A stretch of 23,383 nucleotides of DNA from a virus, in the IMG/VR virus record IMGVR_UViG_3300035698_014762, positions 1-23,383 of that record; one strand, given 5' to 3'. Shown in pieces: positions 7,408 through 23,376 of this stretch. The translations under genes were made by a program, and so were the position numbers. Within the stretch, counting starts at the first letter, position 1, and every line of letters begins with the position of its first letter. The notes under the pieces are model-generated. The model was not told the origin of the DNA. It worked only from the letters and a program-made list of their open reading frames with translations, and did not search any database.

Positions 7408-8055
7408 ATGATAGAAAACAAGAAATTAGTCATAGGTATTCCTTCCTCTGGTATGGTTGATTGGAGATTTGCTAGTAGTCTAATGACTTTACAACTTACT
7501 CAAGAAACAAGAATTGTTTGGACAGTTAAAGTTATGATTGATACTGCCAGAAACACTCTAGTTAAAGAAGCACTTAAAGATGATAGTTTTACACATCTTT
7601 TAATGATAGATGATGATATGACATTCGAACCAGATTTTGTTGAAAGACTTTTAGAACACGATGTAGATGTTGTTGGAGGTCTTGCATTCAAACGTAGTCA
7701 AGATTTCAAACCTTGTGTATATAGACAAAATAAGAAGGATATGAATTATTATCCTATCTTACCAGAAGTATTTCAAGAGGTTGACATTGTTGGAACAGGT
7801 GGTATGCTAATAAATATGGAAGTATTGAAAAAAATGAAAGAACCTTGGTTTTTCACAGATTATGATAAAGATGGTACTCATTGGAGTGTTGATTTTCGTT
7901 TCTGTCAAAAAGCAAAACAAAAAGGTTTTAAAATATTCGTTGATCCAGAGGCACCAATGGGACATGTTGGTAACTCTCCTATTATCGGTCGAACTGATTT
8001 TTTAAAACATGTAAAAGAAGAAGAAAAAATAAATAAACTTTTAAATAAAAAATAA
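7408..8055 (+). CDS. GT-A glycosyltransferase (phage GT2-like), first of the cassette
   Basis: This 215-residue protein is a single-domain GT-A transferase. It starts with the nucleotide-binding strand LVIGIPSSG (7-15). It has an ARNTLV motif (47-52) and the metal-binding HLLMIDDDM (63-71, Asp68-70), followed by VDVVGGLAFKRSQDFKPCVY. A GTGGMLIN segment (about 129-136) and WSVDFRFCQKAKQKGFKI (about 153-170) form the acceptor side. It has two relatives at the far end of the cassette (21220-21924 and 21899-22516), which share the (A/N)RN motif, the D-x-D site and the late region. It begins 122 bases after the capsid stop and ends one base before the small virion-type protein at 8057. Donor and acceptor cannot be read from sequence. 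Confidence 0.82.
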   Translation: MIENKKLVIGIPSSGMVDWRFASSLMTLQLTQETRIVWTVKVMIDTARNTLVKEALKDDSFTHLLMIDDDMTFEPDFVERLLEHDVDVVGGLAFKRSQDFKPCVYRQNKKDMNYYPILPEVFQEVDIVGTGGMLINMEVLKKMKEPWFFTDYDKDGTHWSVDFRFCQKAKQKGFKIFVDPEAPMGHVGNSPIIGRTDFLKHVKEEEKINKLLNKK

Positions 8056-8056
8056 A

Positions 8057-8317
8057 ATGCAAGTAATCAAAGTAACAGCGACTGGAGTAGCACATACTGG
8101 TAAAACAATTATAGGTAATGTGAACTTAGTATCTGGTTCTGCTGCAGCAACAATAGTGTTGAATGATAGTTTAGATGGATCTGGTGATGACTTTGGAGCA
8201 ATAAAAACAGCCAATGGTACTTCAAACAGAATGGACATGGAAAGCCAAGTTTTTAAAACTGGTATATATGCAACAATAACAGGAGCAGGGGCTTCAGCGT
8301 ATATCTACGTTAAATAA
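8057..8317 (+). CDS. Small beta-rich virion-type protein
   Basis: This 86-residue protein has alternating Val/Ile/Thr/Ala strands. It starts with MQVIKVTATGVAHTGKTIIG, has a central SAAATIVLNDSLDGSGDDFG region and ends in GIYATITGAGASAYIYVK. Similar short proteins with a VTATG opening and a G(L/I)YATITG ending are common in phage structural regions, where they are thought to be virion components. No signal peptide or membrane segment is visible. It follows the glycosyltransferase stop by one base, so the two are likely co-translated. It could be a decoration or fibre-associated subunit and a candidate acceptor of the glycan. Function is inferred from composition and context only. Confidence 0.6.
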   Translation: MQVIKVTATGVAHTGKTIIGNVNLVSGSAAATIVLNDSLDGSGDDFGAIKTANGTSNRMDMESQVFKTGIYATITGAGASAYIYVK

Positions 8318-8347
8318 TAATTAAAAAAAATTACTTTTACGAGAGAT

Positions 8348-8482
8348 ATGGAAAAGACAAAACAAAACGATTTTTCTCATGAATATATCATTGAGAAGGT
8401 AAAAAAAGTATATCTATCTTATAGAGACACCCTTAGAAGTGTCTTTATGAGTATATTGTATAAATATACCTTAATATTATGA
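8348..8482 (+). CDS. Possible 44-residue small protein, ATGA-coupled to next gene
   Basis: A 45-codon frame runs from ATG at 8348 to TGA at 8480-8482. It encodes a basic peptide starting MEKTKQNDFSHEYIIEKVKK and ending in a hydrophobic SILYKYTLIL tail. Its stop overlaps the next start as ATGA, the arrangement seen at five other gene junctions in this window. Against it, the frame is short, its middle is a strong hairpin (8421-8448), and no family is recognised. The alternative is a non-coding leader with a terminator-like stem. Confidence 0.35.
   Translation: MEKTKQNDFSHEYIIEKVKKVYLSYRDTLRSVFMSILYKYTLIL
8421..8448 (+). terminator. Terminator-like hairpin upstream of the CgeB-like gene
   Basis: Bases 8421-8430 pair with 8439-8448 over 10 bp with one G-U pair, around the 8-base loop CCTTAGAA. 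The 3' arm contains TTT but no longer T-tract follows. It may end transcription from the upstream genes, or act as an RNA element inside the possible small ORF. A second small inverted repeat (8451-8456 with 8464-8469) follows. Confidence 0.4.
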
Positions 8483-9450
8483 AAAAAGCTTTAACAATAG
8501 GTGTTTATGACCCTAATTTAATAATACAGGCTAGTCCATACTGTGGTGATCAAGTATTCGCAAAAGGATTAGAAGCAAATGGTCATGAGGTAACTAGATT
8601 TGATTATAGAAAAAGTCAACTTCCTAATCACGAACTGTTAAAACTTTCAGATGAAACAAAACCAGATTTGTTTTGGTTTGGTAAAGCTGAAAAAATAAGT
8701 GAAAAAACTATAGAAGTATTAAGAAAACGATTTCCAAAAGCAAAATTTATTAAATGGTTCGCAGATATATGAAACGAACCAACTTCACATGATATGTCAC
8801 ATAACAAACATATGGATTGGTGTTTTGGTACTTCGGGTGGAGAATACTTAAAGAAACATTTATTGTCTACTATGAAAGGAGTCGCTTCAATAATTACTTT
8901 CACTGATTCTGATTTTTATAAAAAACAAGAAGTGGAAGAACAATATCAGTCAGATATACTTTGGACTGGTAGAAAAGGGTTTGGTGATAATGAAATGAGA
9001 AATGAAGTGATTGATTTTCTTAGTCGAATTTCTAATGTAAATGTAAAAATAACAGGTTTGAATGATTGGTTAGGCGATCCAGAGTATCTATATTATATAA
9101 ACGGTACAAAAATAGGAATTGGTGCAAATAGTTTTAATAGAACAAAGTATACCTCAGACAGATTAGGAAATTATATTTCATGTGGTACTTTTTATCTACC
9201 ACATTATTTTGAAGGAATAGAAGAAATATTTACTAGAGGTGTGAATATCGATTGGTACGATTCTATCGAAGAATTACAAAAGAAATTGGAATATTATTTA
9301 TCAAATCCAGACGAAAGAAAAAAAATTGCTTCAAAAGCAAATAAATTTGTATTAAAATATTTTGACACTAAACCATTAGTTAATAATCTTCTTCATATTA
9401 TTAAAACAGGCAAAAGTCAAAACAAATGGGACGATGTTTTTTTAAACTAA
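8479..9450 (+). CDS. CgeB-like glycosyltransferase split by one in-frame TGA
   Basis: One frame from ATG 8479 to TAA at 9448-9450 encodes a 324-position product interrupted by TGA at 8770-8772 (position 98). The 97 residues before it start like a GT-B N-domain (IGVYDP, PYCGDQVFAKGLEANGHEV) and end in KWFADI. The part after it includes DWCFGTSGGEYLKKH, LNDWLGDPEYLYYING, SDRLGNYISCGTFYLPHYF and YYLSNPDERKKIASKA, matching the CgeB/Glyco_trans_1_2 C-domain. A second start at 8794 would give a separate 218-residue protein. The seven codons between TGA and that ATG read as sensible protein (NEPTSHD). Relatives I recall have Arg after the Asp-Ile pair, so AGA or CGA to TGA by one change is likely. 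Options are a recent nonsense mutation, a split gene, or UGA readthrough. It is no general recoding, since UGA is used as a stop elsewhere in the window. Confidence 0.75.
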
Positions 9451-9496
9451 ATATATCTTTATTATAAAATATTAATAATCATTAAATAAAAGTACA

Positions 9497-9820
9497 ATGT
9501 ATAAAAAAAAATATTTAAAAACACTTACAAAAAAGATGGATAAGAAGAATGAAGAATTCACGAAAAAGTTGTTATCAGATGAAGAGAAATTAATGAATTT
9601 ATCTCCATACGAAACATCAGATTATATTAAATGTAAAGGACGTATGATAGAGGAATTCGAAGGCAAAATAAGAGTGGCTTTCGTTCGATGTCCAAAATGT
9701 AGAAAATTTATAAGTATACATAAAGATGAGATTGGTAGAGAAGGTTTTACGAAGATTAGAAAATGTCTTTGTGGAGTAAAAACATCTTTTATTTTAAAAA
9801 AATGGAAAACTAAAACATAA
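9497..9820 (+). CDS. Small zinc-ribbon-like protein of unknown function
   Basis: This 107-residue basic protein has a Lys-rich helical N-terminus (1-35) and a Cys pattern CPKC (65-68) with CLC (90-92) that could bind one zinc ion, as in zinc ribbons. I recognise no family. It lies 46 bases after the CgeB-like gene and 7 bases before the homing endonuclease start. It might have arrived with the endonuclease, because zinc-finger proteins often travel with such genes, or belong to the phage. The ATG follows TTAAATAAAAGTACA, A-rich with no Shine-Dalgarno. Similar AT-rich composition gives no sign of separate origin. Confidence 0.6.
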   Translation: MYKKKYLKTLTKKMDKKNEEFTKKLLSDEEKLMNLSPYETSDYIKCKGRMIEEFEGKIRVAFVRCPKCRKFISIHKDEIGREGFTKIRKCLCGVKTSFILKKWKTKT

Positions 9821-9827
9821 ACATATC

Positions 9828-9851
9828 ATGGAAGTAACAACAATATTACAA
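9828..9851 (+). repeat. Direct repeat copy 1 (start codons of homing endonuclease)
   Basis: These 24 bases match 10574-10597 at 22 positions, differing only at bases 7 and 15. Both copies start at the ATG and end after codon 8 (CAA). Upstream and downstream sequence then differs completely. The two copies bracket 722 bases of endonuclease sequence. Confidence 0.8.
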
Positions 9852-10583
9852 ACTAAAAGAATAAGTAATTCCAAAGGTAAACATTGGAAATTATCTACAG
9901 AAACTAAAAAGAAATTTAGTGACGTAGCAAAAAAGAATGGATTTGGTAAATGGATGAAAGGAAGAAAAAAGAAAGAAGAAACTATACAGAAAATGTTATT
10001 GACTAGAAAAGAAAGAGGTCACTCAAAATGTAACGAAAAGACAAAAGAAAAAATAAAACAGTCAGCGTTATTAAGATGGAAAAATCCAGAATTTAGGAAA
10101 AAAATGGTTATCGTTAACAAAACGTTAGATACTATAGAAAAAAGAAAGAAAGCATCTTCTGGTAATAAGAATGGATTTTTTGGAAAAACGCATTCATCTT
10201 TAACTCGTCAGAAATTACAAGAATATCAAATTCAAAATCCAAATCAATTATATTCCAATACTAGTATCGAAAGAAAAATAAATAAAGAAATCAAAAAATT
10301 AGGCTATATACAAGAAATTGATTTTTTCCAAAATTATCCTATAAAAAATATCGCAAATGTAGATTTCTTTTTTCCTATACAAAAAATCGTAGTACAATGT
10401 GATGGATGTTATTATCATGGTTGTTCGAAACATCATCCCGAAATGACACGTACAATAAAAAGAGATCTTTTTCAAAATAAACGACTTAGAGAAAATGGAT
10501 ATATAGTTTATAGATTTTGGGAACATGAAATAAACGAATCGTCTAAAAAATGTATAAATAAAATAAAAGAATTATGGAAATAA
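9828..10583 (+). CDS. Homing endonuclease: NUMOD3 DNA-binding repeats plus Vsr-like nuclease domain
   Basis: This 251-residue protein has a basic N-terminal region with NUMOD3-type modules (GKHWKLSTETKKKFSDVAKK, 17-36; GNKNGFFGKTHSSLTRQKLQ, 112-131). These are the DNA-binding units of phage homing endonucleases. A C-terminal Vsr/PD-(D/E)xK-like domain follows (about 145-235), with TSIERK (145-150, Glu148), VDFFFP (178-183, Asp179), VVQCDGCYYHG (188-198, Asp192 and His197) and YRFWEHEI (228-235). Where many relatives have Glu before CDG, this one has Gln190. It should make a site-specific DNA break that drives its own spread. Its first eight residues, MEVTTILQ, are not part of the nuclease family but copy the start of the next gene (MEITTILQ). 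Its last codons overlap that gene's start (10574-10583). It is a free-standing gene, with no intron evidence. Confidence 0.85.
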   Translation: MEVTTILQTKRISNSKGKHWKLSTETKKKFSDVAKKNGFGKWMKGRKKKEETIQKMLLTRKERGHSKCNEKTKEKIKQSALLRWKNPEFRKKMVIVNKTLDTIEKRKKASSGNKNGFFGKTHSSLTRQKLQEYQIQNPNQLYSNTSIERKINKEIKKLGYIQEIDFFQNYPIKNIANVDFFFPIQKIVVQCDGCYYHGCSKHHPEMTRTIKRDLFQNKRLRENGYIVYRFWEHEINESSKKCINKIKELWK

Positions 10584-10597
10584 CAACTATATTACAA
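10574..10597 (+). repeat. Direct repeat copy 2 (start codons of glycosyltransferase)
   Basis: This is the partner of 9828-9851, 22 of 24 bases identical. Its first 10 bases also encode the last codons and TAA of the homing endonuclease in another frame. Confidence 0.8.
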
Positions 10598-11287
10598 TTA
10601 TATCGCCGACCAGAATATTTAAAAGAGCAAGTAGAAGCGATAAAAAAACAATCGATAACTTCTAAAATAATTGCTGTTCATAACGAAGGAGATGTATTAT
10701 TTGAATATCCTAAAGAAATCGATGCTATAATATATTCCAGTGAAAATCTTAAATATCATTTAAGATACGCGATAGGTCTTTTAGCAAAGACTAAATACGT
10801 TTCTTTTTTCGATGACGATACTATATGTGGACAAAAATGGTATGAAAATTGTATAAATACTATTAAAAAACATGATTGTATTTGTGTAGCGAATGGAAGG
10901 ATTATTGATAGAAAAAACCAAAGACAATATGGACCAGGTTGGCCTGATCCAAAAGAACATGAGATCGAAGTTGATTTTGGCGGTCATGCTACTTTTTTAA
11001 AAAAAGAAAACCTTAAATATATGTGGTATGATGATATTATTGAACATAATAATGGTGAAGATATACAATTAAGTGCAAATGCGAAGATATTTGGAAAAAT
11101 ACCAACGTATGTACCACCTTATCCATTAGCAGATAAATCTTTATGGGGTTCAGACCCAGAAAAAGCAATGAAGTATGGAGCAGATAAGGTAGCTTCTTAT
11201 ATTGTAAATCCTGCACATCATAAAGAAAGATATATTCTTTTTGATAAATACGTAGAAAGAGGCTGGGAGTTATTATTAGAAAAATAA
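10574..11287 (+). CDS. GT-A glycosyltransferase at homing endonuclease insertion site
   Basis: This 237-residue single-domain transferase opens with TTILQLYRRPEYLKEQVEAI (4-23), typical of a GT2-like first strand and helix. It has VHNEGD (35-40) and the metal site VSFFDDDTICG (76-86, Asp80-82). Later elements include GPGWPDPKE, DFGGHATFLKK and EHNNGEDIQLS, the last giving a likely acidic acceptor-side residue. The start at 10574 lies inside the last codons of the homing endonuclease, overlapping by 10 bases. Before the insertion, this gene presumably followed the zinc-ribbon gene directly. It appears intact, so the insertion preserved the host gene. A 99-base gap follows before the next transferase. 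Confidence 0.82.
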   Translation: MEITTILQLYRRPEYLKEQVEAIKKQSITSKIIAVHNEGDVLFEYPKEIDAIIYSSENLKYHLRYAIGLLAKTKYVSFFDDDTICGQKWYENCINTIKKHDCICVANGRIIDRKNQRQYGPGWPDPKEHEIEVDFGGHATFLKKENLKYMWYDDIIEHNNGEDIQLSANAKIFGKIPTYVPPYPLADKSLWGSDPEKAMKYGADKVASYIVNPAHHKERYILFDKYVERGWELLLEK

Positions 11288-11386: not shown

Positions 11387-12082
11387 ATGAACATTTCAAT
11401 TATAGCACCAATAGTATTATTGGAAAAAGAACTTTTAGATAGAACAAAGTTATTCTTTGAAGACATTAGAGCAGGTATGGACGAAGACGACGAATTGATA
11501 GTCGTAGACAATGGTTCCAAAATAGGTAAGGAAGATTTAATGAAAGCAGCAGATATCTATATACATACACCAGAACCAGTTGGTTGTGCTACTGCTTGGA
11601 ATTTAGGCGCAAAAATAGCAAAAGGTAAATATATAGTAATTGCTAGCAATGATTGCAGAGTTGGTAAAGATTGGGCTAAAAAAACTATAGAAAAATTCGA
11701 AGAAAATGAAAAAATAGGAATTGTTTCTTGTAATGGTTCACATATGTTATCATCGACAGGTACTGCATTCAATGGTATCTTTTGGACAGTTAGAAAAAAA
11801 GTATTTGATGATATAGGTTATTTTGAAAAATTACAACCATATCAACCCGATGATTCTGATTTTTGTTTAAGAGCAGTTATAGCAGGTTGGGAAATCAAAG
11901 TAGCTGATTTTTTATATAGTCATCCATCTAGAAAAAGTACGCATACACAAGACGAATTTAATAATATTATTAAACATAGTTCTCTTTGGACAGAAAAAAC
12001 ATTTTGTGAAAAGTGGAATTTAGAAAAAGAACAAGAATGGTATAGGTATGCATTGAATTTTAAAAAAACAAAACAAACATGA
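11387..12082 (+). CDS. GT2 glycosyltransferase
   Basis: This 231-residue GT2 enzyme shows the family order. It has a first strand ISIIAPIV (3-10), the donor-binding LIVVDNGS (37-44), EPVGCATAWNLGAKIAKGKY (63-82), and the metal-site strand YIVIASNDC (82-90, with Asn-Asp in place of the usual Asp-x-Asp). A DDSDFCLRA acceptor-side motif follows in the C-terminal third. It is a close paralogue of 15265-16005, sharing the opening (ISxIxPI), the EDIRAGM/SDIREGM helix and the DN(G/A)S motif. It overlaps the next gene as ATGA (12079-12082). The start at 11387 follows ATACAAACAAG and is the first ATG in the frame. The upstream gap (11288-11386) holds only a short frame lacking ATG. Confidence 0.85.
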   Translation: MNISIIAPIVLLEKELLDRTKLFFEDIRAGMDEDDELIVVDNGSKIGKEDLMKAADIYIHTPEPVGCATAWNLGAKIAKGKYIVIASNDCRVGKDWAKKTIEKFEENEKIGIVSCNGSHMLSSTGTAFNGIFWTVRKKVFDDIGYFEKLQPYQPDDSDFCLRAVIAGWEIKVADFLYSHPSRKSTHTQDEFNNIIKHSSLWTEKTFCEKWNLEKEQEWYRYALNFKKTKQT

Positions 12083-12810
12083 AATTTGCATCTCTTACGA
12101 TAGCGTATAATGAGGAAGATATGATCCGAGGTTGTCTCGAAGGTTTAAAAGATATTGATAGATATGTTATTATTTCAAAACCTTGGTTTGGTGCACATAA
12201 AAAGTTTGATAAAACTTTTGAATTAGCTACTAAAATGGGAGCAGTAGTAATACGTAAAGACTTTAAGACAGAACAAGATCAACGCAATCACTTAATGTCG
12301 TTTCTTCAAGAATCAGGATATGATTATGTATTCATAGTTGATTCTGATGAATTTTATACTAGAGAAGATATACAAAAAGCAATATCATATATCGAAAAAC
12401 ATTCAAACATAGAACAATTTATGGTAGGCACATGCAAATATTTATGGAAAGATTATAATTGGGAAATCATACCAAGATATAATAACATTATTCCAATTTG
12501 TATACGTTCTAATATGAGATTTAAATCTACAAGAAATGTAATAACGACAGATAAAGAAATTTTACCACCGAATATTACATTATATCATTTTTCATACGCT
12601 GGTAAAGATAAAAGAATTCTTAGCAAATTAGAACATTTTAGTCACGCGAATGAAATGAATCCAGAATGGTATGAAAAGGTTTGGAAAAATTGGAATCCAG
12701 AAATGGAAGACATTCATCCAGGTATGAATTGCCCTAGTAGTTTTAAAAAAGCAATACCTTTTAAAGAATGTCCAATAAATATTATTAATAGATTCAATAA
12801 CAATATATGA
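12079..12810 (+). CDS. GT2 glycosyltransferase
   Basis: This 243-residue GT2 enzyme has the nucleotide-binding start ASLTIAYNEEDMIRGCLEGL (4-23). A KTEQDQRNHL stretch (63-72) precedes the metal-site strand VFIVDSDEF (84-92, Asp88 and Asp90). The second half has YLWKDYNWEIIPRYNN and LYHFSYAGKDKRI. The AYNEE motif resembles that of LPS core and beta-1,4-glucosyl-type GT2 enzymes, but no specific substrate follows from that. Both ends overlap its neighbours as ATGA (12079-12082 and 12807-12810), so three genes in a row are probably translated in stoichiometric coupling. Confidence 0.85.
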   Translation: MKFASLTIAYNEEDMIRGCLEGLKDIDRYVIISKPWFGAHKKFDKTFELATKMGAVVIRKDFKTEQDQRNHLMSFLQESGYDYVFIVDSDEFYTREDIQKAISYIEKHSNIEQFMVGTCKYLWKDYNWEIIPRYNNIIPICIRSNMRFKSTRNVITTDKEILPPNITLYHFSYAGKDKRILSKLEHFSHANEMNPEWYEKVWKNWNPEMEDIHPGMNCPSSFKKAIPFKECPINIINRFNNNI

Positions 12811-13304
12811 AATTAAATTTAGGAAGTGGTAATAGAAAGATTGATGGATATACGACAGTAGACATACATCCGTTTAAAAACGTGGAAATAGTGCATGATA
12901 TCGAAAAAAAATTACCAATACAAACAAACTCTGTTACAGAAATATATAGTAGTCATGCGTTAGAACATTGTAAAATGTCTGCAGTATCAGAAATGTTAAA
13001 AGATTGGTATAGAGTGTTAACTAAAGAAGGAATTGTTCGTCTTGTAGTACCAGAATTAATGTCTTCTTTGAAAAATTTTATAAATTCAGAAGAAAATGGA
13101 GACCGTTGGAAAGTAAGGATTGAATATATATATGGCGCACAAGACAACAATCATGGACAACAAACTCATAAATCAGGTTATACACCAGAACGTATTACTA
13201 ATTTATTAGAAATTGCAGGTTTTCAAGTCGATAAATTAGAAATTATTAACAATGGTATAAATGATTGCATTCATTTATTAGCAAGCAAAAAACAAAATGG
13301 ATAA
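12807..13304 (+). CDS. Small SAM-dependent methyltransferase
   Basis: This 165-residue class I methyltransferase has the SAM-binding loop LNLGSGNRKIDGY (3-15), the acidic residue after the second strand (VDIHP, Asp19), the SSHALEHC segment (48-55) and DWYRVLTKEGIVRLVVPEL (about 66-84). It is shorter than typical relatives but has all core strands, so I do not regard it as truncated. In this context it likely methylates a sugar or a glycan end, as O-methyl groups often cap phage and bacterial glycans. The substrate is inference. It overlaps the transferase upstream (ATGA) and the epimerase downstream by 8 bases. Confidence 0.82.
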   Translation: MKLNLGSGNRKIDGYTTVDIHPFKNVEIVHDIEKKLPIQTNSVTEIYSSHALEHCKMSAVSEMLKDWYRVLTKEGIVRLVVPELMSSLKNFINSEENGDRWKVRIEYIYGAQDNNHGQQTHKSGYTPERITNLLEIAGFQVDKLEIINNGINDCIHLLASKKQNG

Positions 13305-14265
13305 CATAAAAAAAGATACAGTTTTAGTAACTGGTGGAGCTGGTTTTATTGGTTCCCACTTAGTAGACGAATTACTTTTTCAAGGTCATCGTGTGATTGT
13401 CATCGATGATTTAAGCACAGGCAATAAAAACAATGTCATAAAAGAAAGAGATTTCGTATGTTCGTATTTATTTAATGAATTAAACATAGGATCGAACATT
13501 GCAGAAGAGGTATTAACACATTTGTTAAAAAGAGAAAATGTTAGATATATTTTTCATTGTGCTTCAATACCAAGAACACAATATTGTGTAGAAAATCCAG
13601 GAGAATGTAATCAAGCAAATGTAACTGGTACTTTAAATGTTCTTAATGCAGCAGTTAAATCAAAAAACATTAAGAAAATTATACTTTCTTCTTCTTGTGG
13701 TATATATGGTGCTCAAAAAAAGTTACCGATTACAGAAGAAGCTCCTATTAATATGGGTACTCCATATTCCGTCCAAAAGTATATGCAAGAACTATATGTC
13801 AATCTTTTCAATACTCTTTATGAATTACCAGCAGTTATTTTAAGGTATTTCAATGTATATGGTACGAAAAGACAAACAGAAAAAGGTTCATATCCTAATG
13901 TATTAGCTGCTTTTTCAAAACAAAAAAGAGAAAATGGCAAGATTTTTATAACTGGTAATGGTAAACAAAGCAGAGATATGGTGCATGTGTATGATGTCGT
14001 CAATGCAAATATTATTGCTATGCATTCAGATTTAGAAAACGCTGAAGTATTTAATATTGGTACGGGTAAAAAAATATCAATAAATAGTATGGCAAAACAT
14101 TTTAAATGCCCTATTGAATACATAGAAAAAAGACCAGGCGAGGCAAAAGATTTGTATGCAGATATTTCAAAAACTATTAAAGGATTAAATTGGAAACCAA
14201 AGATTTCTTTTAAAAAAGGTATTCAAGGATATTTAGAACAGACAAATGATTTATTAAAAAAATAA
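13297..14265 (+). CDS. NAD-dependent nucleotide-sugar epimerase/dehydratase (SDR)
   Basis: This 322-residue extended SDR enzyme has the NAD-binding motif VTGGAGFIGSHLV (11-23), an acidic residue for the NAD ribose (IDDLS, 36-40), the Ser triad SSSCGIYG (131-138) and catalytic PYSVQKY (156-162, Tyr157 and Lys161). Then comes LRYFNVYG (182-189). All catalytic elements of UDP-glucose/UDP-GlcNAc 4-epimerase-type enzymes are present. It should interconvert or dehydrate a nucleotide sugar that feeds the nearby transferases. The exact sugar (4-epimerase, dehydratase or other) cannot be settled. It overlaps the methyltransferase by 8 bases and is followed by a second, divergent SDR after 32 bases. 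Confidence 0.87.
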   Translation: MDNIKKDTVLVTGGAGFIGSHLVDELLFQGHRVIVIDDLSTGNKNNVIKERDFVCSYLFNELNIGSNIAEEVLTHLLKRENVRYIFHCASIPRTQYCVENPGECNQANVTGTLNVLNAAVKSKNIKKIILSSSCGIYGAQKKLPITEEAPINMGTPYSVQKYMQELYVNLFNTLYELPAVILRYFNVYGTKRQTEKGSYPNVLAAFSKQKRENGKIFITGNGKQSRDMVHVYDVVNANIIAMHSDLENAEVFNIGTGKKISINSMAKHFKCPIEYIEKRPGEAKDLYADISKTIKGLNWKPKISFKKGIQGYLEQTNDLLKK

Positions 14266-15257: not shown

Positions 15258-15264
15258 AAAAAAT

Positions 15265-16028: not shown

Positions 16029-16583
16029 ATGAAAAAAGAAATTTTAATATCATTTGATGATTTATGGGAGGGAAATGATCATTGGGAAGAGTTTGAGAAG
16101 TTTGCAAAAGAATTTCCTAGTTTAAAAATAACTTTTTTCGTGATAACAGGCGAATGTTCTGAAGATTTTTTAAAAAAGATAAAACAACCTTGGGCACAAT
16201 TAGTTTTCCATAGTTGGGAACATTCAGGTCATTGGCAACATTGGACAGTCGAAGAAACTAAAGAATGGTTACTTAAATTTCAGAAATATGGTTTCGAAAA
16301 AGGATTTAAAGCTCCTGCTTACAAATGGTCTGATAAACATATAGATGCGTGCAATGAATTAGATTATTGGGTATGTAGTTCACCAACTATACCAGTGAAA
16401 GCAAAAAAGTATTGGTATACTTATCCAAAAGATGCCTCTATTATGAATTATCCAACATATGATGAATACTATGATCATTTACAAAATAAAACATTTTCGA
16501 AAGATTTAGAGACATTAAAACAATTTTGTAGAGATAATGATCCAGAGTTTAAATTCATATCAGAAAAAATAAAAACACAATGA
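16029..16583 (+). CDS. NodB-type polysaccharide deacetylase-like protein
   Basis: This 184-residue protein has the NodB homology motifs: ISFDDLW (7-13, Asp10 as base and Asp11 as metal ligand), VFHSWEHSGHW (59-69, His61 and His65 as metal ligands), and KGFKAPAYKW (91-100). In the last, Lys94 takes the place of the usual Arg of the R-x-P motif. Family members remove acetyl groups from N-acetylated sugars. With a UDP-GlcNAc 2-epimerase nearby, an N-acetylhexosamine substrate is plausible. It is shorter than most deacetylases and has no signal peptide or membrane segment, so it would act in the cytoplasm. It overlaps the next gene as ATGA (16580-16583). Activity on a glycan already attached to a virion protein is inference. 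Confidence 0.78.
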   Translation: MKKEILISFDDLWEGNDHWEEFEKFAKEFPSLKITFFVITGECSEDFLKKIKQPWAQLVFHSWEHSGHWQHWTVEETKEWLLKFQKYGFEKGFKAPAYKWSDKHIDACNELDYWVCSSPTIPVKAKKYWYTYPKDASIMNYPTYDEYYDHLQNKTFSKDLETLKQFCRDNDPEFKFISEKIKTQ

Positions 16584-17323
16584 AAAGCAATACAATACAT
16601 TTTATATGCAATGAATTTTCTAGAGGGATTGGTCAGAGTTTAGATTGGTGGAAATACAGATTATCCATTTACGAACACTATACTTTAAATAGTATCATCA
16701 AACAAACAAATAAAAACTTTTATTTATTAATGACTATTGACAATAGATTTCCTTTAAAAAAGGAACTAGAAGAGATATTAAAAAAATCTGGATTAAAATA
16801 TATATTTGTCAATCGTTCAATAGAAAATGATTTTAAAAACAAAATAAGTATGTTACCAGATTTCGAATACGCGTTTGCTACTAGAATAGATTCTGATGAT
16901 TTGTTTAGAAACGATGTAGTCGAAGAAATACAAACTTTTGAATATAGTTGGAAAAGAGCTTTAGTATTTCAAAAAGGTTATTGTTACAATTGTATAGATA
17001 ATAAATTACAACATTATAAAGTATTCTCACCACCCAATTCAACTATTATGTACCCTAAAGATATTTTTGTTGATGAAGTTAAGAATAGAGAATATTTAGA
17101 TATACATGGTCATGATCAAGTTTTTTCAAGAATGAATTCTATCGTTTTGTCTGAAAACAAATATATTATATTAATTCATAAAAGTAATCGAAGATCTGTA
17201 TATATCGAAGGAGAACAAGCAGATGATTTAAAAAGGTTTGATATCAATGAAAATGAACATATTGATATATTAAAAAACTTTAGCATAACGAACAAAACAC
17301 ATAACAAAGTATGGAAAGAATAA
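16580..17323 (+). CDS. Putative rhamnosyltransferase-type glycosyltransferase
   Basis: This 247-residue protein resembles the Rhamno_transf family. It has an N-terminal segment with Trp-rich DWWKYRLSIYEHYTLNSI (22-39), NKNFYLLMTIDNRFPLKKEL (44-63), and the metal site YAFATRIDSDDLF (97-109, Asp104, Asp106, Asp107). Next come FQKGYCYN and PPNSTIMYP. The family name reflects a few rhamnosyltransferases; the donor sugar here is not known and no rhamnose biosynthesis genes are in view. The ATGA overlap with the deacetylase and the 13-base overlap with the methyltransferase behind it indicate one tightly packed operon. Confidence 0.78.
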   Translation: MKSNTIHFICNEFSRGIGQSLDWWKYRLSIYEHYTLNSIIKQTNKNFYLLMTIDNRFPLKKELEEILKKSGLKYIFVNRSIENDFKNKISMLPDFEYAFATRIDSDDLFRNDVVEEIQTFEYSWKRALVFQKGYCYNCIDNKLQHYKVFSPPNSTIMYPKDIFVDEVKNREYLDIHGHDQVFSRMNSIVLSENKYIILIHKSNRRSVYIEGEQADDLKRFDINENEHIDILKNFSITNKTHNKVWKE

Positions 17324-17925
17324 TAGAAAATAATATAAACACAACAGAATATTGGGACGCCTTTGCAAATGTTGATTACATGGAAGCAGATAGAAAAAGA
17401 GGAGGTAATATTTGTCGTTTTTCAAATATTTTCGAATACATAAAAGAAGATGTAGATATTTTAGATATTGGATGTCTTACTGGCAATCTTTATAATTTTA
17501 TTAAAGAAAAGGAACTAAAAATAAAGTCATTCACAGGGATAGACATATCTGATAAATTGATAGAACTAACAGAAAAAAGATTTCCAGAACAGACATGGAA
17601 AGTAGCTAATTGTTATTCTCTTCCATTCGAAGATGATTCTTTTGATATAGTCACAGGATTGGAAGTAATAGAACATATTGAAGAACCAGAAAAAATGCTC
17701 CAAGAAATGATGAGAGTGACAAGAAAAAACGGTAGTGTTATTATAACTACTCCAAACAATAATTTTGTTAAAGATGCAGCACATATTTGGTCTTATTCGA
17801 CTGCAGATATTTTCGATCTGTTAAGTAAAATTAGCAAAAATATAGAAATCATGAAAATCTGTTCTACTGATAGATATATTTTAGCTAGAGCGATTATTAA
17901 TTTTAGTAATGAATTACCTACTTAA
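17311..17925 (+). CDS. Class I SAM-dependent methyltransferase (Methyltransf_11-like)
   Basis: This 204-residue enzyme has an N-terminal YWDAFANVDYM (14-24) as in UbiE/Methyltransf_11 relatives, the SAM loop ILDIGCLTGNL (50-60), the acidic residue FTGIDIS (74-80), ANCYSLPFEDDSFDIV (99-114), and VIEHIEEPEKMLQEMMRV (119-136). All core motifs are present. It probably methylates a sugar or a sugar-linked group in this cassette, since no other substrate genes lie nearby, but small-molecule or other targets cannot be excluded. It overlaps the preceding transferase by 13 bases and is followed by the UDP-GlcNAc 2-epimerase gene after 5 bases. It is not closely similar to the methyltransferase at 12807-13304. 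Confidence 0.85.
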   Translation: MERIIENNINTTEYWDAFANVDYMEADRKRGGNICRFSNIFEYIKEDVDILDIGCLTGNLYNFIKEKELKIKSFTGIDISDKLIELTEKRFPEQTWKVANCYSLPFEDDSFDIVTGLEVIEHIEEPEKMLQEMMRVTRKNGSVIITTPNNNFVKDAAHIWSYSTADIFDLLSKISKNIEIMKICSTDRYILARAIINFSNELPT

Positions 17926-17930: not shown

Positions 17931-18968
17931 ATGAAAGAAAACACAAACGAAATATTTATTGTTGGTACTAGACCAGACATTATTAAAATGGCACCTCTTA
18001 TATTAAAGATGAAGCCTTTTGTTATACATTCTGGACAACATAAAGAATTAGCAAAAGAAGCGTTTGAAATTTTTGGTATAAAACCAGACATTGATTTAAA
18101 ATTAATGAAAAAAAATCAAACTATTATTAGTTTTATTTCGAAATCTATAAAAGAGATAGATAAAATAATAAAAATTAAAAAACCAAAAAGAATATGGGTT
18201 TTAGGAGATACTTCTACTGCTTATGTTGGTTCTTTAGTCGCTTTTACAAATAATATACCTTTAGTACACATCGAGGCTGGTTTAAGAACGCATGATAAAT
18301 ATAATCCATTTCCAGAAGAAATGTTTAGAATAGCTATCGATCAGTTTGCAGATATAATGTTTGCACCAACAAAAGGAAACGTCAAAAATTTACAAAAAGA
18401 AAACTGTTTAAATAAAGTATTCGAAGTAGGAAATACTATCGTCGATGCTTTAACAATTATTGAAAAGAAATTACCAAAAGAAAGACCAATACAAGAAAAA
18501 TATATTTTAGCAACTGTACATAGAAGAGAAAGTATAGGAAAAGATATGTATGAAATTTTTAAAACTCTTAAAGAAATATCAAAAACTACAAAACTTATTT
18601 TACCAGCTCATCCAAATCCAAACGTACAGAAGATCATCAAACAAGTTGGTATAAAAGTAGTCAAACCTATGAATTATATAGATTTTTTATGGCATCTTCG
18701 TGATTGTGAATATGTAATAAGCGATTCAGGAGGTATTCAAGAAGAAGCATCATCTTTTGGTAAAAAAATTATTATATTAAGAAAAACTACAGAAAGACAA
18801 GAAATAATTAGAAAAGGTTATGGTATTCTTATTAAAAGAATGGAATATTTATATATGTTGAATAAAATTAAGAAATTCGTTTCTAAAAAAATAGACATTA
18901 ATGAAAATCCATTTGGAGACGGTACTACTTCTGATAAAATCATAAAAATAATAAAAGAAAAGGGGTAA
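17931..18968 (+). CDS. wecB: UDP-GlcNAc 2-epimerase, non-hydrolysing (WecB-type)
   Basis: The 345-residue product shows the family's full set of signatures: VGTRPDIIKMAPL (11-23; most relatives have Glu where this has Asp), LGDTSTAYVG (91-100), HIEAGLRTHDKYNPFPEEMF (113-132), VHRRES (196-201), SDSGGIQEEASSFGK (264-278) and RKTTERQE (284-291). The enzyme interconverts UDP-GlcNAc and UDP-ManNAc in the cytoplasm. It is the one activity here whose substrate can be named with confidence, so N-acetylmannosamine or a derivative (for example an uronic acid) is a likely building block. It sits 5 bases after the methyltransferase and 33 bases before the basic-tailed glycosyltransferase. Length is slightly below the usual 360-380 residues, with the shortening at the C-terminus. 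Confidence 0.9.
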   Translation: MKENTNEIFIVGTRPDIIKMAPLILKMKPFVIHSGQHKELAKEAFEIFGIKPDIDLKLMKKNQTIISFISKSIKEIDKIIKIKKPKRIWVLGDTSTAYVGSLVAFTNNIPLVHIEAGLRTHDKYNPFPEEMFRIAIDQFADIMFAPTKGNVKNLQKENCLNKVFEVGNTIVDALTIIEKKLPKERPIQEKYILATVHRRESIGKDMYEIFKTLKEISKTTKLILPAHPNPNVQKIIKQVGIKVVKPMNYIDFLWHLRDCEYVISDSGGIQEEASSFGKKIIILRKTTERQEIIRKGYGILIKRMEYLYMLNKIKKFVSKKIDINENPFGDGTTSDKIIKIIKEKG

Positions 18969-19001: not shown

Positions 19002-20231
19002 ATGAAAAAACAAACAAATAAGGCAATAAACAGAATAAAAAGCAAAAGAACATCTATTGTCATAAAAACGAAAAAAACAAAGAAAAAAATTATAAAAAGT
19101 ACACGAAAACGTACAAATAAACATAATATATGCGTAATATCGCTTACTTTTGATAGACCAGAATATATCAAGAGATCTTTTGATAGTCTATATAAAAGAG
19201 CAGGTATGAAATTCGATCATTATGTATTTGATGATTGTTCGAATAAGAAAACACGAGAAATGTTATTAAAATTAAAAGAAAAATATCATTTCAAATTGTT
19301 TTTAAATAAAAATAGAGTAAGTATTTTCAAAAGATTTTATCTATCTTTATTAAAGATACCTTTAGATTATAATTATTATGTTAAATTTGATAGCGACGTA
19401 GAAATATTAAGTGATAACATGTTTATTCATATATTAGATATTTTTTCTTTTCCAGAAAAGGTAAGTGGTGTTATGCCAAGAGTTGAAGGAGTAAGAAATG
19501 TTGATAGATATGATAGTGGAATGGAATTTTTCAATGGACATGTTATAAAGAAAGAGTCATCTGCTACTTCTGGTTGTTGTATGTTTTTTTCAAATGAGAT
19601 GTTTTCTTCTTTTGAAAGAAAAAGTTTAAGTGATATCAAGGAATTAAATTCAAAATGGGGTGTTGATTCTGTTTTGTATGATCATGCGTTAAAGATGGGA
19701 AAATTTATTGCAATTGAAGACGTTAGTGTATATCATATCGATAATGCATATGGACAAAGACGAGTAAACCCTTCTTATTTTACTAAACGTAACAGATGGA
19801 ATGTTATTGATATCGATGAAGTATGGTATATGAATGCATCGAAAATATACGCCCCTCAATATTTAAATAGAGCAGCATTAAGCAAATCAAAGAAGGAATC
19901 GCATAATTTTAAAGAGTTTATTGATAATACTGAACAATTTTTTGATACTTCATATGTTAAAGGAAAAGGTAACAAAAACAGATTAATAAAAAAGTTTAAT
20001 AATAATAAAAAGGAAGAAAAAACTGTTTTTTTGAAGAAAATGTACAAAATAACTTCACCTTCGAACTTTAGAAAAGATCCAAATATGACTCATGGTACTT
20101 TCAAATATTTCTCAGAAATACCTATTTGGGCTAAAAATAACATAAGACTAGTAACAGAAGAGATAGAAATAGACACAAAGAAAAGAAAAAAAGAAACAAA
20201 AGATATCAAATTACATATTTCCGAAAAATAG
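19002..20231 (+). CDS. GT2 glycosyltransferase with basic N- and C-terminal extensions
   Basis: In this 409-residue protein the GT2 core begins near residue 43 (ICVISLTFDRPEYIKRSFDS). The donor motif VFDDCS (75-80) and metal-site strand YYVKFDSDVEI (125-135, Asp130 and Asp132) follow, then a SGCCMFFSNEM acceptor segment (about residue 190). Residues 1-41 are strongly basic, with runs such as KTKKTKKKIIKSTRKR (22-37), and the last hundred residues are Lys-rich too. Such tails are unusual for GT2 enzymes and may bind nucleic acid, an acidic virion protein, or be disordered. The first ATG of the frame is used; a later start would remove the tail, but no downstream ATG precedes the core. The TAG stop is the only one in the window. 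An unusually long gap (145 bases) follows. Confidence 0.8.
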   Translation: MKKQTNKAINRIKSKRTSIVIKTKKTKKKIIKSTRKRTNKHNICVISLTFDRPEYIKRSFDSLYKRAGMKFDHYVFDDCSNKKTREMLLKLKEKYHFKLFLNKNRVSIFKRFYLSLLKIPLDYNYYVKFDSDVEILSDNMFIHILDIFSFPEKVSGVMPRVEGVRNVDRYDSGMEFFNGHVIKKESSATSGCCMFFSNEMFSSFERKSLSDIKELNSKWGVDSVLYDHALKMGKFIAIEDVSVYHIDNAYGQRRVNPSYFTKRNRWNVIDIDEVWYMNASKIYAPQYLNRAALSKSKKESHNFKEFIDNTEQFFDTSYVKGKGNKNRLIKKFNNNKKEEKTVFLKKMYKITSPSNFRKDPNMTHGTFKYFSEIPIWAKNNIRLVTEEIEIDTKKRKKETKDIKLHISEK

Positions 20232-20376: not shown

Positions 20377-20586
20377 ATGAGAGTAAAAGTAAAATTTATA
20401 ACCTCAATGATGAAAAATGGCAAACTTAGAAAGCCAGGTGATGTAATGGAAATAGATGCTTCATCAGCTGTTCTACTTGCGGCAAAAAATAATGTCATCA
20501 TACCTGGTTATCAAGTAAAAAAAGTAAAAAAAGAAATTGAGATAGACACTCTTGTTGTTAACGAAGAAGTCGACAAAAAAATATGA
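20377..20586 (+). CDS. Small structural-region protein of unknown function
   Basis: This 69-residue protein has the opening MRVKVKFITSMMKNGKLRKP and GDVMEIDASSAVLLAAKNNV (22-41), a beta-beta-alpha pattern found in many small phage proteins of head and connector regions. A Lys/Glu/Val-rich tail follows. I cannot name the function. Its stop overlaps the next start as ATGA (20583-20586), so it is coupled to the fibre-like protein and is probably a virion or assembly component. Together the two return the operon to structural genes after the sugar cassette. Confidence 0.6.
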   Translation: MRVKVKFITSMMKNGKLRKPGDVMEIDASSAVLLAAKNNVIIPGYQVKKVKKEIEIDTLVVNEEVDKKI

Positions 20587-21068
20587 AAGAAGCAAAAAAT
20601 TTAGAAAGAGCATTAATGAAGGGTTATATAAAAATTGAACTTTTTGATGATGAAGGAAATCTTAAAGAATCATTAGAAAAACACAATACTTTTATGGCTG
20701 TTGGAGATGCTCATGTCGCAGATCAACTTGCTGCTACACCCGCTGAAACTGCAATGGGTTATATGTCAGTTGGTACTGGTTCTACTGCTTTCACTACATC
20801 AAGTACTGTTTTGAATTCAGAAATAGATAAAAACGCATTAAGTGCAGGTTATCCAGAACAACAAGCTGGTGCTGCTGATAATGACGTTATTTATAAAGCT
20901 AATTGGGCGGCAGGCGATGCTACTGGAGCACTTACTGAAGCTGGTATTTTCAATTCTTCAGTTTCAGATGCTGGTATAATGTTGGCTGCTTCAACTTTCT
21001 CCGTTATTAACAAAGGAGCATCCGATTCGTTAACAATCACTTGGACAATTACTGTTGGTGCAAGCTAA
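20583..21068 (+). CDS. Virion structural protein, tail-fibre-like
   Basis: The 161-residue product has an N-terminal helix-strand segment (MKEAKNLERALMKGYIKIEL), a Gly/Thr-rich middle with YMSVGTGSTAFTTSSTVLNS (about 59-78) and the ending AASTFSVINKGASDSLTITW (about 135-154). The GTGSTAF, ITEAGIFNSS-like and FSVINKGASDSLTITWT patterns are familiar from phage fibre or baseplate-adjacent proteins. Serine and threonine make up much of the C-terminal half. This makes it, with the capsid cement protein, a plausible O-glycan acceptor, though that is inference. The start is set by the ATGA overlap with the previous gene. A large palindrome and hairpin lie beyond the stop. Confidence 0.72.
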   Translation: MKEAKNLERALMKGYIKIELFDDEGNLKESLEKHNTFMAVGDAHVADQLAATPAETAMGYMSVGTGSTAFTTSSTVLNSEIDKNALSAGYPEQQAGAADNDVIYKANWAAGDATGALTEAGIFNSSVSDAGIMLAASTFSVINKGASDSLTITWTITVGAS

Positions 21069-21109
21069 TTATGATTTATTACATCTATATGGTGTAATTA
21101 ATATGTAGT

Positions 21110-21127
21110 TAGTTATTCGAATAACTA
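21110..21127 (+). repeat. Perfect 18-bp palindrome
   Basis: TAGTTATTCGAATAACTA is its own reverse complement, centred on TCGA, between the fibre-like gene and the hairpin at 21142-21181. Dimeric regulators bind such sites, and in RNA it would form only a stem with a very small loop. Confidence 0.7.
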
Positions 21128-21141
21128 TCTAATATCTATTA

Positions 21142-21181
21142 AAGGGCTCGTGTTATAGTTTTTTTAATAACAAGAGCTCTT
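21142..21181 (+). terminator. Strong hairpin, likely terminator
   Basis: Bases 21142-21156 pair with 21167-21181, giving 15 positions with one mismatch (G21150-A21173) and one G-U pair. The loop (21157-21166) holds seven T's. The stable stem lies between the fibre-like gene and the second glycosyltransferase block. The T's sit in the loop rather than after the stem, so termination is likely but not certain. Confidence 0.5.
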
Positions 21182-21219
21182 AAATAGAGGTGAACAATAT
21201 AAACAAATAAGAAAAACAT

Positions 21220-21924
21220 ATGAATGAAAAGACTAGAATAACAATTGGCATTCCTACCTCGAACGCTTATTTGCATAGAAAATTCGTTCAAAGTCTAATG
21301 AGTCTCAGATATCCTAATAATGTTGATGTTAATATTAACATTATAGAAGGTTTTCAATTACCTTTCGCACGTAATCGAATAGTTCAGTCAGCATTAAAAG
21401 ATAATTCTGATTATATTTTTTGGTTAGATGCTGATATGGTATTTACACCAGACGTTTTAACTAGATTATATGAACGTAAAGTTGATATTTGTCATGCTCT
21501 TTCATTTAGACGAACTAAACCACATTATCCATGTGTATTCAAATGGGTAGAAAAAAATAAATGCTTTGAAACGATCGATTATTCAAAAATTCAAGAAGAA
21601 ATATTCGAAGTTGATGCTGCTGGTTCAGCATGCACATTAATAAGTACAGACGTATATAAAAAATTGTCAGTTCCATATTACTATTATAGAGATAATTTAA
21701 TTAGTAGTGATTTGACTTTTAGTGAAAATGTAAGAAAAGTAGGATATAAAATTTGGATAGATAAAACATTAAAAACAGGACATATAGGTGAAGAAATTGT
21801 AGTAACTGAAACTACATACTTGTCAAATCTATCAAAAAAATCGATTGAGGAATGGAACAAAGATATGAAAAAAGGATTAGAAAATAAAAAAAATATTAAT
21901 GAAAATACATCTATCGATTCTTAA
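21220..21924 (+). CDS. GT-A glycosyltransferase, paralogue of 7408-8055
   Basis: The 234-residue product has RITIGIPTSNAYLHRKFVQS (6-25), PFARNRIV (48-55) and the metal site YIFWLDADMVF (65-75, Asp70 and Asp72). The VDICHALSFRR stretch, VDAAGSACTLIS and the late SSDLTFSENVRKVGYKIW follow. These match 7408-8055 (the SLM(T/S)L, ARN, DxD, F(K/R)R and V(D/G)(F/L)-x-F-x-(K/N) positions), so the two share an ancestor, and 21899-22516 is a third, more distant copy. The start is after an intergenic stretch with a terminator-like hairpin. The 3' end overlaps the next gene by 26 bases. Donor sugar unknown. Confidence 0.82.
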   Translation: MNEKTRITIGIPTSNAYLHRKFVQSLMSLRYPNNVDVNINIIEGFQLPFARNRIVQSALKDNSDYIFWLDADMVFTPDVLTRLYERKVDICHALSFRRTKPHYPCVFKWVEKNKCFETIDYSKIQEEIFEVDAAGSACTLISTDVYKKLSVPYYYYRDNLISSDLTFSENVRKVGYKIWIDKTLKTGHIGEEIVVTETTYLSNLSKKSIEEWNKDMKKGLENKKNINENTSIDS

Positions 21925-22516
21925 TCAAGGTTCGATTTGTGATGACCTAGCTATAAAACTACCAAGATGGATTGATGAGTGTCGTACAAAAGGACATTCT
22001 ATTTATTTCGAATCATGCAAATTAAGACCAATTGAGAACAATCGAAACACAATAGTAAAACGTTTTCTTGAATCAGATTCAGATTATTTGATTCAAATAG
22101 ATAATGACAACGTACCAGATAAAAATCCATTATTATTAGTCGATACAATGGTTGAAAATAAAATTGATATTTTAAGTTGTCCAGTATGGATTTATCAACA
22201 TAAACTTTGTTTAAACATTTATAAATATGATGACGAACAAGAATTTTTGTTACCTATCGAACCGAACGAATATTCCGGTTTGATAGAAATCGATGCTACT
22301 GGAACTGGCCTTTTATTATGCTCTAGAAGCGCTCTAGAACCCTTAATAAGACCTTTCGAACGTCTTTTTGATGAGATACATGGCATTGAAATATTAGGTC
22401 TTGATTTAGCTTTTTCAAAGAAAGCTAAAGAAGCAGGATTTAAGATTTTTTCTCATCTTGATTATATTTCAAAACATTACAAAAATATCGACATTAGCAC
22501 TTTCTTAAAAAAATAA
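21899..22516 (+). CDS. GT-A glycosyltransferase, third copy of the ARN/DxD group
   Basis: The 205-residue product has IHLSILNQGSICDD (3-16), the NRNTIVKRF motif (48-56) and the metal site YLIQIDNDNVP (63-73, Asp68 and Asp70). IDATGTGLLLCSRSALEPL (about 131-149) and LDLAFSKKAKEAGFKIF follow. It is similar in layout to the 21220-21924 and 7408-8055 products, but with an Asn in place of Ala before the RN pair. The ATG at 21899 lies inside the last codons of the preceding gene (26-base overlap), which suggests coupled translation. The following gene begins 2 bases after its stop. Substrates are not readable from the sequence. Confidence 0.8.
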   Translation: MKIHLSILNQGSICDDLAIKLPRWIDECRTKGHSIYFESCKLRPIENNRNTIVKRFLESDSDYLIQIDNDNVPDKNPLLLVDTMVENKIDILSCPVWIYQHKLCLNIYKYDDEQEFLLPIEPNEYSGLIEIDATGTGLLLCSRSALEPLIRPFERLFDEIHGIEILGLDLAFSKKAKEAGFKIFSHLDYISKHYKNIDISTFLKK

Positions 22517-22518
22517 AA

Positions 22519-23376
22519 ATGTTAAGCATAATTATACCAGCAAGAACTGAAAAATTTCTTAATAAAACAATTTACGATTTATTAGAGAAAGCGACTGGAG
22601 AAATAGAAATCATTGCTGTTCTTGATGGTTATGGAGACACTCCATATGAAAAAGTAAAAGATCCTAGAGTCAAATATATATCTTTTCCTTTACCAGTTAA
22701 TTTAGAAAGAAGAAAAAGACAAGCTGTTAACGCAGGAGTATCTATATCTCATGGTGAATATGTTATGTGGATCGATGCTCATTGTGTAATAGGAAAAGGT
22801 TACGACGAAATATTAGCCAGAGACTGTAAGGACGATTGGGTAATGGTGCCTAGAAGATATAAAATGGATTACACGAAATGGGACAGAAAGATTGAAGAAG
22901 ACAGACCACCTATTGATTATGTATATCCTATGTGGCAATACTTAAAAAAGAAAAATAGAATAGCAGGATATAAATGGGACTTAAAGTCAATAGCAAATAA
23001 AGACATAATGATAGACGATATAATGATTACTCAAGGCTCACTTATATTCACAACTCGTAAATGGTTCGATAAAATGAAATTCATGAAGCTAGAAGGATAC
23101 ACAGGATGGGGACAAGAAGGAGAAGAAGTATGTATGGAGACTATTAAAGCTGGTGGAAGAGCAGTAGTAAATAAAAATACTTGGTATGCTCATCTACATA
23201 AAGGACAAATGCATGGACGTATGTATAAATGGACGACAGTTGAACCTAGTTATGCGTATTCATACAATTATTGGGTACATGAGAATAAAGAATTCTTTAT
23301 AAAATTAATAGAAGATAATCTTCCAATACCGAACTTCCATAGCGATTGGAAACAAAAATTATATGACAAAAAATAA
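22519..23376 (+). CDS. GT2 glycosyltransferase with DxH motif (ppGalNAcT-like layout)
   Basis: This 285-residue GT2/GT27-like enzyme has LSIIIPARTEKFLNKTIYDL (2-21), IIAVLDGYGD (31-40) and the metal-site strand YVMWIDAHCVIGKGY (81-95), with Asp86-x-His88 in place of Asp-x-Asp. A later YTGWGQEGEEVCMETIKAGG segment and KNTWYAHLHKGQ follow. An Asp-x-His site together with a downstream W-G-x-E segment is the layout of polypeptide GalNAc-transferases (GT27), which glycosylate Ser or Thr in proteins. Bacterial GT2 enzymes with other acceptors also have it. This is the strongest hint here that the glycan is put on protein, but it remains a hint. It is complete, ending at TAA 23374-23376, close to the right edge. 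Confidence 0.82.
   Translation: MLSIIIPARTEKFLNKTIYDLLEKATGEIEIIAVLDGYGDTPYEKVKDPRVKYISFPLPVNLERRKRQAVNAGVSISHGEYVMWIDAHCVIGKGYDEILARDCKDDWVMVPRRYKMDYTKWDRKIEEDRPPIDYVYPMWQYLKKKNRIAGYKWDLKSIANKDIMIDDIMITQGSLIFTTRKWFDKMKFMKLEGYTGWGQEGEEVCMETIKAGGRAVVNKNTWYAHLHKGQMHGRMYKWTTVEPSYAYSYNYWVHENKEFFIKLIEDNLPIPNFHSDWKQKLYDKK

Follow-up and report, generated by a model that had tools for sequence, protein, structure and literature searches.

Gene content and setting of the cassette

The virus record IMGVR_UViG_3300035698_014762 is a linear sequence of 23,383 bp, and the whole record is the window analyzed here. Directly after the gene for the major capsid protein (MCP), positions 7408–23376 carry a cassette of sugar-related genes, all on the plus strand. 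Eleven of these are glycosyltransferase (GT) genes, starting at 7408, 8479 (continued at 8794), 10574, 11387, 12079, 15241, 16580, 19002, 21220, 21899 and 22519; where a GT is named below, the number is its start. The remainder comprises two short-chain dehydrogenases/reductases (SDRs), a WecB-type UDP-GlcNAc 2-epimerase, a marginal NodB-like deacetylase, two methyltransferases and three small virion-type genes. The original prediction, made from the letters alone, gave this same inventory, which is right, with 8479 and 8794 being one gene and the deacetylase marginal. Two further members are a 107-aa open reading frame (ORF) containing a CxxC motif (9497) and a NUMOD3/Vsr-type nuclease (9828). 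The 2-epimerase belongs to the equivalog family TIGR00236, scoring 303 bits against a curated cut-off of 210. The marginal deacetylase retains SFDD and HSxxH motifs and has orthologues at 51–60% in the related contigs G002 and G015.

To the left of the cassette lies a head module (1578..7285, plus strand) in the order portal, protease/scaffold, cement, gpT-type MCP. Matches to PF10124 and PF06074, both over their cut-offs, assign it to the Mu-like (gpT) head lineage, and its gene order is kept in related phages. The genes of the cassette are tightly packed, with 18 of 22 intergenic gaps being overlaps or at most 50 nt long. Promoter- and terminator-like sites in the window are no more frequent than expected by chance. 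A 21-nt sequence, AAATAAAATAAAAGAATTATG, occurs identically at 7390–7410 and 10556–10576, spanning the starts of GT7408 and GT10574 (chance expectation, 0.04 matches).

A constant position for the cassette between capsid and tail genes

Relatives were gathered from viral contigs by their capsid proteins. In all 20 contigs with an MCP at least 59% identical to that of the window and with sequence continuing downstream (some being near-duplicates and some ending too early), a homologue of GT7408 lies within the first few genes after the MCP gene. The 86-aa small protein follows it in 14 of the 20. The order then runs through a GT4-type GT, a small ORF, GT10574, a variable stretch, a methyltransferase/deacetylase/rhamnosyltransferase-like GT group, WecB and GT19002; the block 20583-21220-21899 is kept in G005, G006, G007 and G010. 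The original prediction had proposed a search for the same gene order in related contigs, and the cassette proved to be syntenic in 20. Because of this synteny and the tight packing, the arrangement reflects more than chance. In one relative, L041 (G014), a 234-aa ORF interrupts the capsid gene and divides it into parts of 127 and 208 aa, possibly as an intron or intein-like insertion.

The cassette encodes no membrane assembly machinery. A simple hydropathy scan of 202 cassette proteins from ten contigs of this clade (clade I) found none with three or more predicted transmembrane segments, and hence no Wzx or Wzy; nor is there an initiating membrane transferase, flippase, polymerase or ABC exporter among the 202 genes. 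This agrees with the earlier proposal that the glycan is built in the cytoplasm. The locus thus has the lipid-carrier-free organization of virion glycosylation of the kind described for the mycobacteriophages Che8 and Corndog, and lacks the combination of flippase/polymerase or exporter with a membrane initiating transferase that marks a Wzx/Wzy- or ABC-type surface polysaccharide locus. Placement in a virion operon also holds up. In G014, G015, G009 and G010, the MCP gene is followed by the GT cassette, beyond which come large genes of structural and tail type; in contigs of 54–70 kb, the region beyond the cassette encodes proteins of 1148–1919 aa and tape-measure-sized proteins with transmembrane segments, these downstream genes being recognized from size and position, not from family hits. 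Since the longer relatives pass into such genes, there is no flippase or polymerase just beyond the cassette, where the original prediction had allowed that one might be discovered.

Table 1. Features of the window in order of position.
Feature	Position	Strand	Evidence
TAGT-family (TET-associated) GT, upstream of portal	444-1250	+	PF20691, 4.7e-11; PHROG 842, beta-glucosyl-HMC-alpha-glucosyltransferase
Portal	1578-3068	+	PF06074, 3e-27
Prohead protease (S78; protease/scaffold)	3176-5908	+	PF04586
Cement protein	5927-6337	+	PF09956
gpT-type MCP	6347-7285	+	PF10124, 7e-60
GT7408, GT-A transferase, first GT after capsid gene	7408..8055	+	PF00535
86-aa beta-sandwich protein	8057..8317	+	AlphaFold2 model; adjoins GT7408
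GT4-type transferase, conserved core, split in window copy	8479..9450	+	PF13524, 2e-18 for 3' part
Small CxxC-containing ORF, cassette core member	9497..9820	+	Orthologues 46-62% identical in L002, L003, L004
NUMOD3 + Vsr/DUF559-type endonuclease	9828..10583	+	PF07460, PF04480; TIGR00632 under cut-off
GT10574, conserved core GT-A transferase	10574..11287	+	PF00535; orthologues in 7 of 10 mapped contigs
Two GT2 transferases (11387, 12079), variable part	11387..12810	+	PF00535; orthologues in 2-3 of 10 contigs
Methyltransferase	12807..13304	+	PF08241
SDR, UDP-hexose/HexNAc 4-epimerase-like	13297..14265	+	PF01370, 3e-54; nearest solved: UDP-glucose 4-epimerase, WbgU, WbpP
Second SDR, nucleotide-sugar dehydratase/epimerase-like	14298..15257	+	PF01370, 2e-38; top NCBIfam dTDP-glucose 4,6-dehydratase, under cut-off
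GT2 transferase	15241..16005	+	PF00535, 1e-17
NodB-like polysaccharide deacetylase (marginal)	16029..16583	+	PF01522, 22.8 bits against cut-off of 23.1
Rhamnosyltransferase-like GT	16580..17323	+	PF11316, 1e-9
SAM-dependent methyltransferase	17311..17925	+	PF08241, 2e-21
WecB-type non-hydrolysing UDP-GlcNAc 2-epimerase (UDP-ManNAc supply)	17931..18968	+	PF02350, 5e-88; orthologues in 8 of 10 contigs
GT2 transferase, after 2-epimerase in most relatives	19002..20231	+	PF00535; orthologues in 7 of 10 contigs
69-aa small protein	20377..20586	+	Orthologue, 48%, in G010
161-aa tail-type virion protein	20583..21068	+	PHROG 5417; tail-fiber PHROG 4176
GT21220, GT7408 paralogue, paired with tail-type protein	21220..21924	+	GT7408 profile, E 2.5e-48
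GT21899, third GT7408-family member	21899..22516	+	GT7408 profile, E 4e-19; PHROG glycosyltransferase family, 6.5e-6; Pfam weak
GT2 transferase, record end	22519..23376	+	PF00535, 9e-13

Conserved core genes and exchanged outer genes

The capsid proteins of two contigs, L002 and L003, share 91% and 88% identity, respectively, with that of the window. Their first five cassette genes are 49–69% identical to those of the window, and most of their middle genes have no window counterpart. L002 instead has, in the middle, a radical-SAM protein, a GFO/IDH/MocA-kind oxidoreductase, different methyltransferases and different GTs. Outer cassette genes are therefore swapped even between phages with 88–91% identical capsids. 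The pattern fits a glycan whose inner part is conserved and whose outer part is exchanged.

In a sister clade with capsids 47–57% identical (clade II; L010/L016/L017 of G004, L035, L038, L042–L045 and L047), the same slot holds an unrelated set of heptose/uronate type. Its starter genes encode a methyltransferase/cytidylyltransferase, a PfkB-type kinase, a cupin and an SDR, joined in several contigs by a UDP-glucose dehydrogenase; the G004 set adds an EamA transporter, LicD and GT8. Still more distant capsid relatives, such as the Coatesbacteria prophage L186, have no homologues of the window GTs after the capsid gene, which suggests that the head module is older and the cassette a later addition.

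The window copy of one core gene is broken. ORFs 8479–8772 and 8794–9450 represent a single GT4-type gene with an in-frame TGA at 8770–8772. The gene is unbroken, at about 325–340 aa, in L002, L003, L004, L007 and L183, and Arg stands at the TGA position in L002, L003 and L183. Recoding is an unlikely explanation, given the Arg in relatives and the use of TGA as terminal stop by 6 of 29 window ORFs; the TGA is either a real nonsense change or a sequencing error. Nearby, the NUMOD3/Vsr nuclease has no counterpart at this site in L002 or L003, and similar nucleases occur in the G010 cassette; the gene is probably a homing or mobile insert outside the pathway.

Small virion-type proteins and their partner transferases

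Profile comparison places GT7408, GT21220 and GT21899 in one paralogous family, and each stands next to or near a small virion-type gene. The AlphaFold2 model of the 86-aa protein (pLDDT 93) is an eight-stranded beta-sandwich closest to small uncharacterized phage proteins (TM-score 0.87). We could assign it no identity from the Protein Data Bank: matches there were generic beta-sandwiches with TM-scores of about 0.5, and turret and cement proteins were resembled weakly. For the 161-aa protein (pLDDT 81), the sole solved match to the model is a tail protein of Haloferax tailed virus 1 (HFTV1; 9h4p_BD, E 1.4e-6).

The pairing of the 161-aa protein with a transferase extends beyond these phages. 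Homologues sharing roughly 50% identity or more with the protein are also encoded by phages that have no detectable window-capsid homologue among their upstream genes. A GT21899 homologue lies at most three genes downstream of the 161-aa homologue in 12 contigs of this homologue group, most of which have no detectable homologue of the window capsid gene upstream. Beside more distant 161-aa homologues, none of 21 contigs has a GT21899 homologue, and one has a GT7408-family gene. This synteny suggests that the transferases are dedicated to adjoining virion proteins. We propose the 86-aa protein as a candidate virion decoration protein and glycan acceptor, and the 161-aa protein as a candidate second acceptor. 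The small proteins beside GTs are better acceptor candidates than the capsid protein.

A probable locus for glycosylation of virion proteins

What does the cassette build? The best explanation, to which we assign a probability of roughly three in four, is that it is a locus for glycosylation of virion proteins. The acceptors, the order of the sugars, a product on the particle and any benefit are what we infer from the locus. In outline, the WecB-type epimerase and the SDRs would supply nucleotide sugars in the cytoplasm of the infected cell, and soluble GTs would add sugars one after another to freshly synthesized virion proteins to form an oligosaccharide, which the deacetylase and methyltransferases would modify. 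GT7408, GT21220 and GT21899 are the probable protein-proximal transferases, each acting on its adjoining virion protein. GT7408, the candidate initiating or core transferase, may use the 86-aa beta-sandwich protein and/or the capsid and cement proteins as acceptors, and GT21220/GT21899 the tail-type 161-aa protein. A conserved core would be added by GT8479/8794 and GT10574, and an exchangeable outer part by the products of the middle genes. The presumed benefit is shielding or altered adhesion.

Several observations weigh against virion glycosylation. The capsid protein has no Ser/Thr-rich C-terminal tail, and neither Ser/Thr content nor a Ser/Thr-rich C-terminus of capsid or cement proteins served as an acceptor mark, cassette-bearing and cassette-free relatives being not clearly different. 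A stop interrupts a core GT in this very copy. The window GTs gave no significant blastp match to Che8 gp110, and we therefore do not claim that they belong to the same enzyme family. Finally, the window-like sugar enzyme set of phage YerA41 has been suggested to serve DNA modification (PMC7354516).

The last of these points leads to the main rival, namely that the cassette acts with a TAGT-family GT and its ParB-like neighbor to build a hypermodified-base glycan that shields the genome from restriction. The TAGT gene (444–1250) is related to beta-glucosyl-HMC-alpha-glucosyltransferases and adjoins the ParB-like gene at 1–447; it had gone unseen in the original prediction, as had the exchangeable outer part of the cassette. 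YerA41 g064–g070 encode a UDP-GlcNAc 2-epimerase, SDRs and a polysaccharide deacetylase, a set similar to that of the window and suggested to feed DNA modification, and the DNA of this phage is heavily modified and could not be sequenced by conventional means (PMC7354516). However, only 5 of 17 relatives have TAGT, and the cassette occurs without it in G005, G006, G009, G014 and G015, which makes the two modules separable; a DNA-directed GT coupled to the cassette is not what these phages show. Neither thymidylate synthase nor dCMP hydroxymethylase was found in 17 contigs, several of them over 50 kb and perhaps incomplete, in a search whose control matched in 9 of 14 genomes. TET_JBP was likewise not found in the 17 contigs, which may be incomplete, in a search that gave no positive control anywhere. 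Moreover, the cassette sits among late virion genes. We consider DNA glycosylation unlikely, although the ParB-like/TAGT pair itself possibly has a role in DNA modification.

Alternatively, the target of the cassette might be a host-envelope glycan (of O-antigen, capsule or S-layer), remodeled for instance to exclude superinfection. WecB, a GalE-like SDR, GT2s and NodB-like proteins are families typical of bacterial surface polysaccharide loci, and an EamA-type transporter occupies the slot of a distant clade-II relative. This reading is nonetheless very unlikely given the lack of any membrane assembly component among the 202 clade-I genes, the location within a late structural operon and the pairing with small virion proteins. 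Least probable of all is a mobile or decaying island that has no present function and lies beside the capsid gene by chance: the TGA-split GT, the NUMOD3/Vsr insert and many singleton genes are as expected of one, but nearly all ORFs are intact and tightly packed, and core orthologues 45–70% identical across contigs keep a fixed order.

Having weighed these alternatives, we return to virion glycosylation and propose, tentatively and at slightly less than even odds, a fuller picture. The cassette may be a serotype-like virion glycan locus in which, within a fixed capsid-tail slot, the protein-proximal core is conserved and outer genes are freely exchanged, and in which each of the paralogous GTs serves a small virion protein of its own; it would have spread in a clade probably infecting Patescibacteria, with sister phages using a wholly different heptose/uronate-type pathway. 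Virion glycosylation of tailed phages has so far been known from a handful of mycobacteriophages. If the virion glycosylation reading is correct, the loci with which uncultured phages build glycans for their own particles are complete and exchangeable. Antigen-like diversification would then occur where antibodies are absent, which would implicate adhesion, host range, grazing or phage-phage interference as the selective force. The locus would also be a ready source of soluble GTs that act stepwise on proteins and come with adjoining candidate acceptors.

Possible hosts

Two contigs give leads to the host. L183 (JANBVJ010000025.1) is a 4.7-kb contig in a Patescibacteria metagenome-assembled genome; its capsid gene is 91% identical to that of the window and is followed by the same order of GT7408, small protein and GT4, and it is one of the 20 contigs with a GT7408 homologue after the MCP gene. 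G011 (L036, 84 kb, capsid 52% identical) has TGA inside many reading frames, and its TGA sites align with Gly at 26 of 64 positions, the next residue accounting for 5. Some Patescibacteria use code 25, in which TGA encodes Gly. The alignment suggests that G011 uses code 25 and has a host of Gracilibacteria/Absconditabacteria type. Assignment through prophages failed: the capsid profile was found in 1 of 380 Patescibacteria genomes, and that one was the source of L183 itself. We regard a Patescibacteria host as a lead and not as established.

Comparison with known systems

Some of the closest resemblances are to systems with other targets or other hosts. Bacterial O-antigen and capsule loci have conserved flanks and exchangeable GT and sugar genes; the window cassette differs from them in having no Wzx, Wzy, WecA/WbaP or exporter. 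YerA41 shares the set of 2-epimerase, SDRs and deacetylase in a phage, but there it is proposed to feed sugar-modified nucleotides. A197 of Sulfolobus turreted icosahedral virus (STIV) is an essential protein of GT-A fold that possibly glycosylates the capsid protein B345 (PMC10551542). Like the GT7408 family, to which it has a weak profile match (E 0.0027), it is a small stand-alone viral GT-A enzyme; it differs in being the one GT of an archaeal virus, with donors thought to come from cellular pathways.

Among annotated phages, the nearest to carry a GT7408 homologue at this position are mycobacteriophages of Omegavirus type. Mycobacterium phage Wanda has the order portal, protease, major capsid, GT (gp15), kinase, methyltransferase, GT, GT, GT ... 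GT, head-tail connector. Gp15, whose gene comes immediately after that for the major capsid protein, is a member of the GT7408 family (profile E 7e-13; against GT7408/GT21220, E 6e-14), and Wanda thus shares a slot between MCP and connector with a GT7408-family enzyme first. It differs in that the annotation of gp15–gp24, from which the cassette is known, includes no 2-epimerase, SDRs or two small virion-type partners. Wanda gp20 is 70% identical to Che8 gp109, which adjoins Che8 gp110. The apparent link between the window and Che8 is thus indirect, through Wanda gp15 and gp20.

Virion glycosylation has been described for Che8, Corndog and Myrna, with capsid and tail-tube subunits as the acceptors, according to later accounts of Freeman et al. 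2023 (PMC12363180, PMC11600133, PMC4351075). Glycosylation of the capsid is reported to require gp110 in Che8 and gp38 in Corndog (PMC12363180). Three GTs and an O-methyltransferase are encoded among the structural genes of Corndog, whose capsid subunits are suspected to carry modifications (PMC4351075). The original prediction had judged a capsid-linked glycan of this elaborateness unusual. Such a cassette is the rule in this clade, and simpler cassettes combining GTs with a methyltransferase were already known from structural operons of phages (PMC4351075, PMC12363180). In the open-license literature we found no cassette of comparable size described for the structural operon of a phage. As in Che8 and Corndog, for which no membrane assembly genes are reported, cytoplasmic phage-encoded GTs are tied to structural genes in the window. 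The differences are the number of sugar genes (about 3–7 there and about 15–20 here), the additional nucleotide-sugar epimerases and deacetylase of its own, a different head lineage and different hosts, and acceptors that are here candidates. We propose that the cassette works like the Che8/Corndog kind, as a much larger, more elaborate and exchangeable version.

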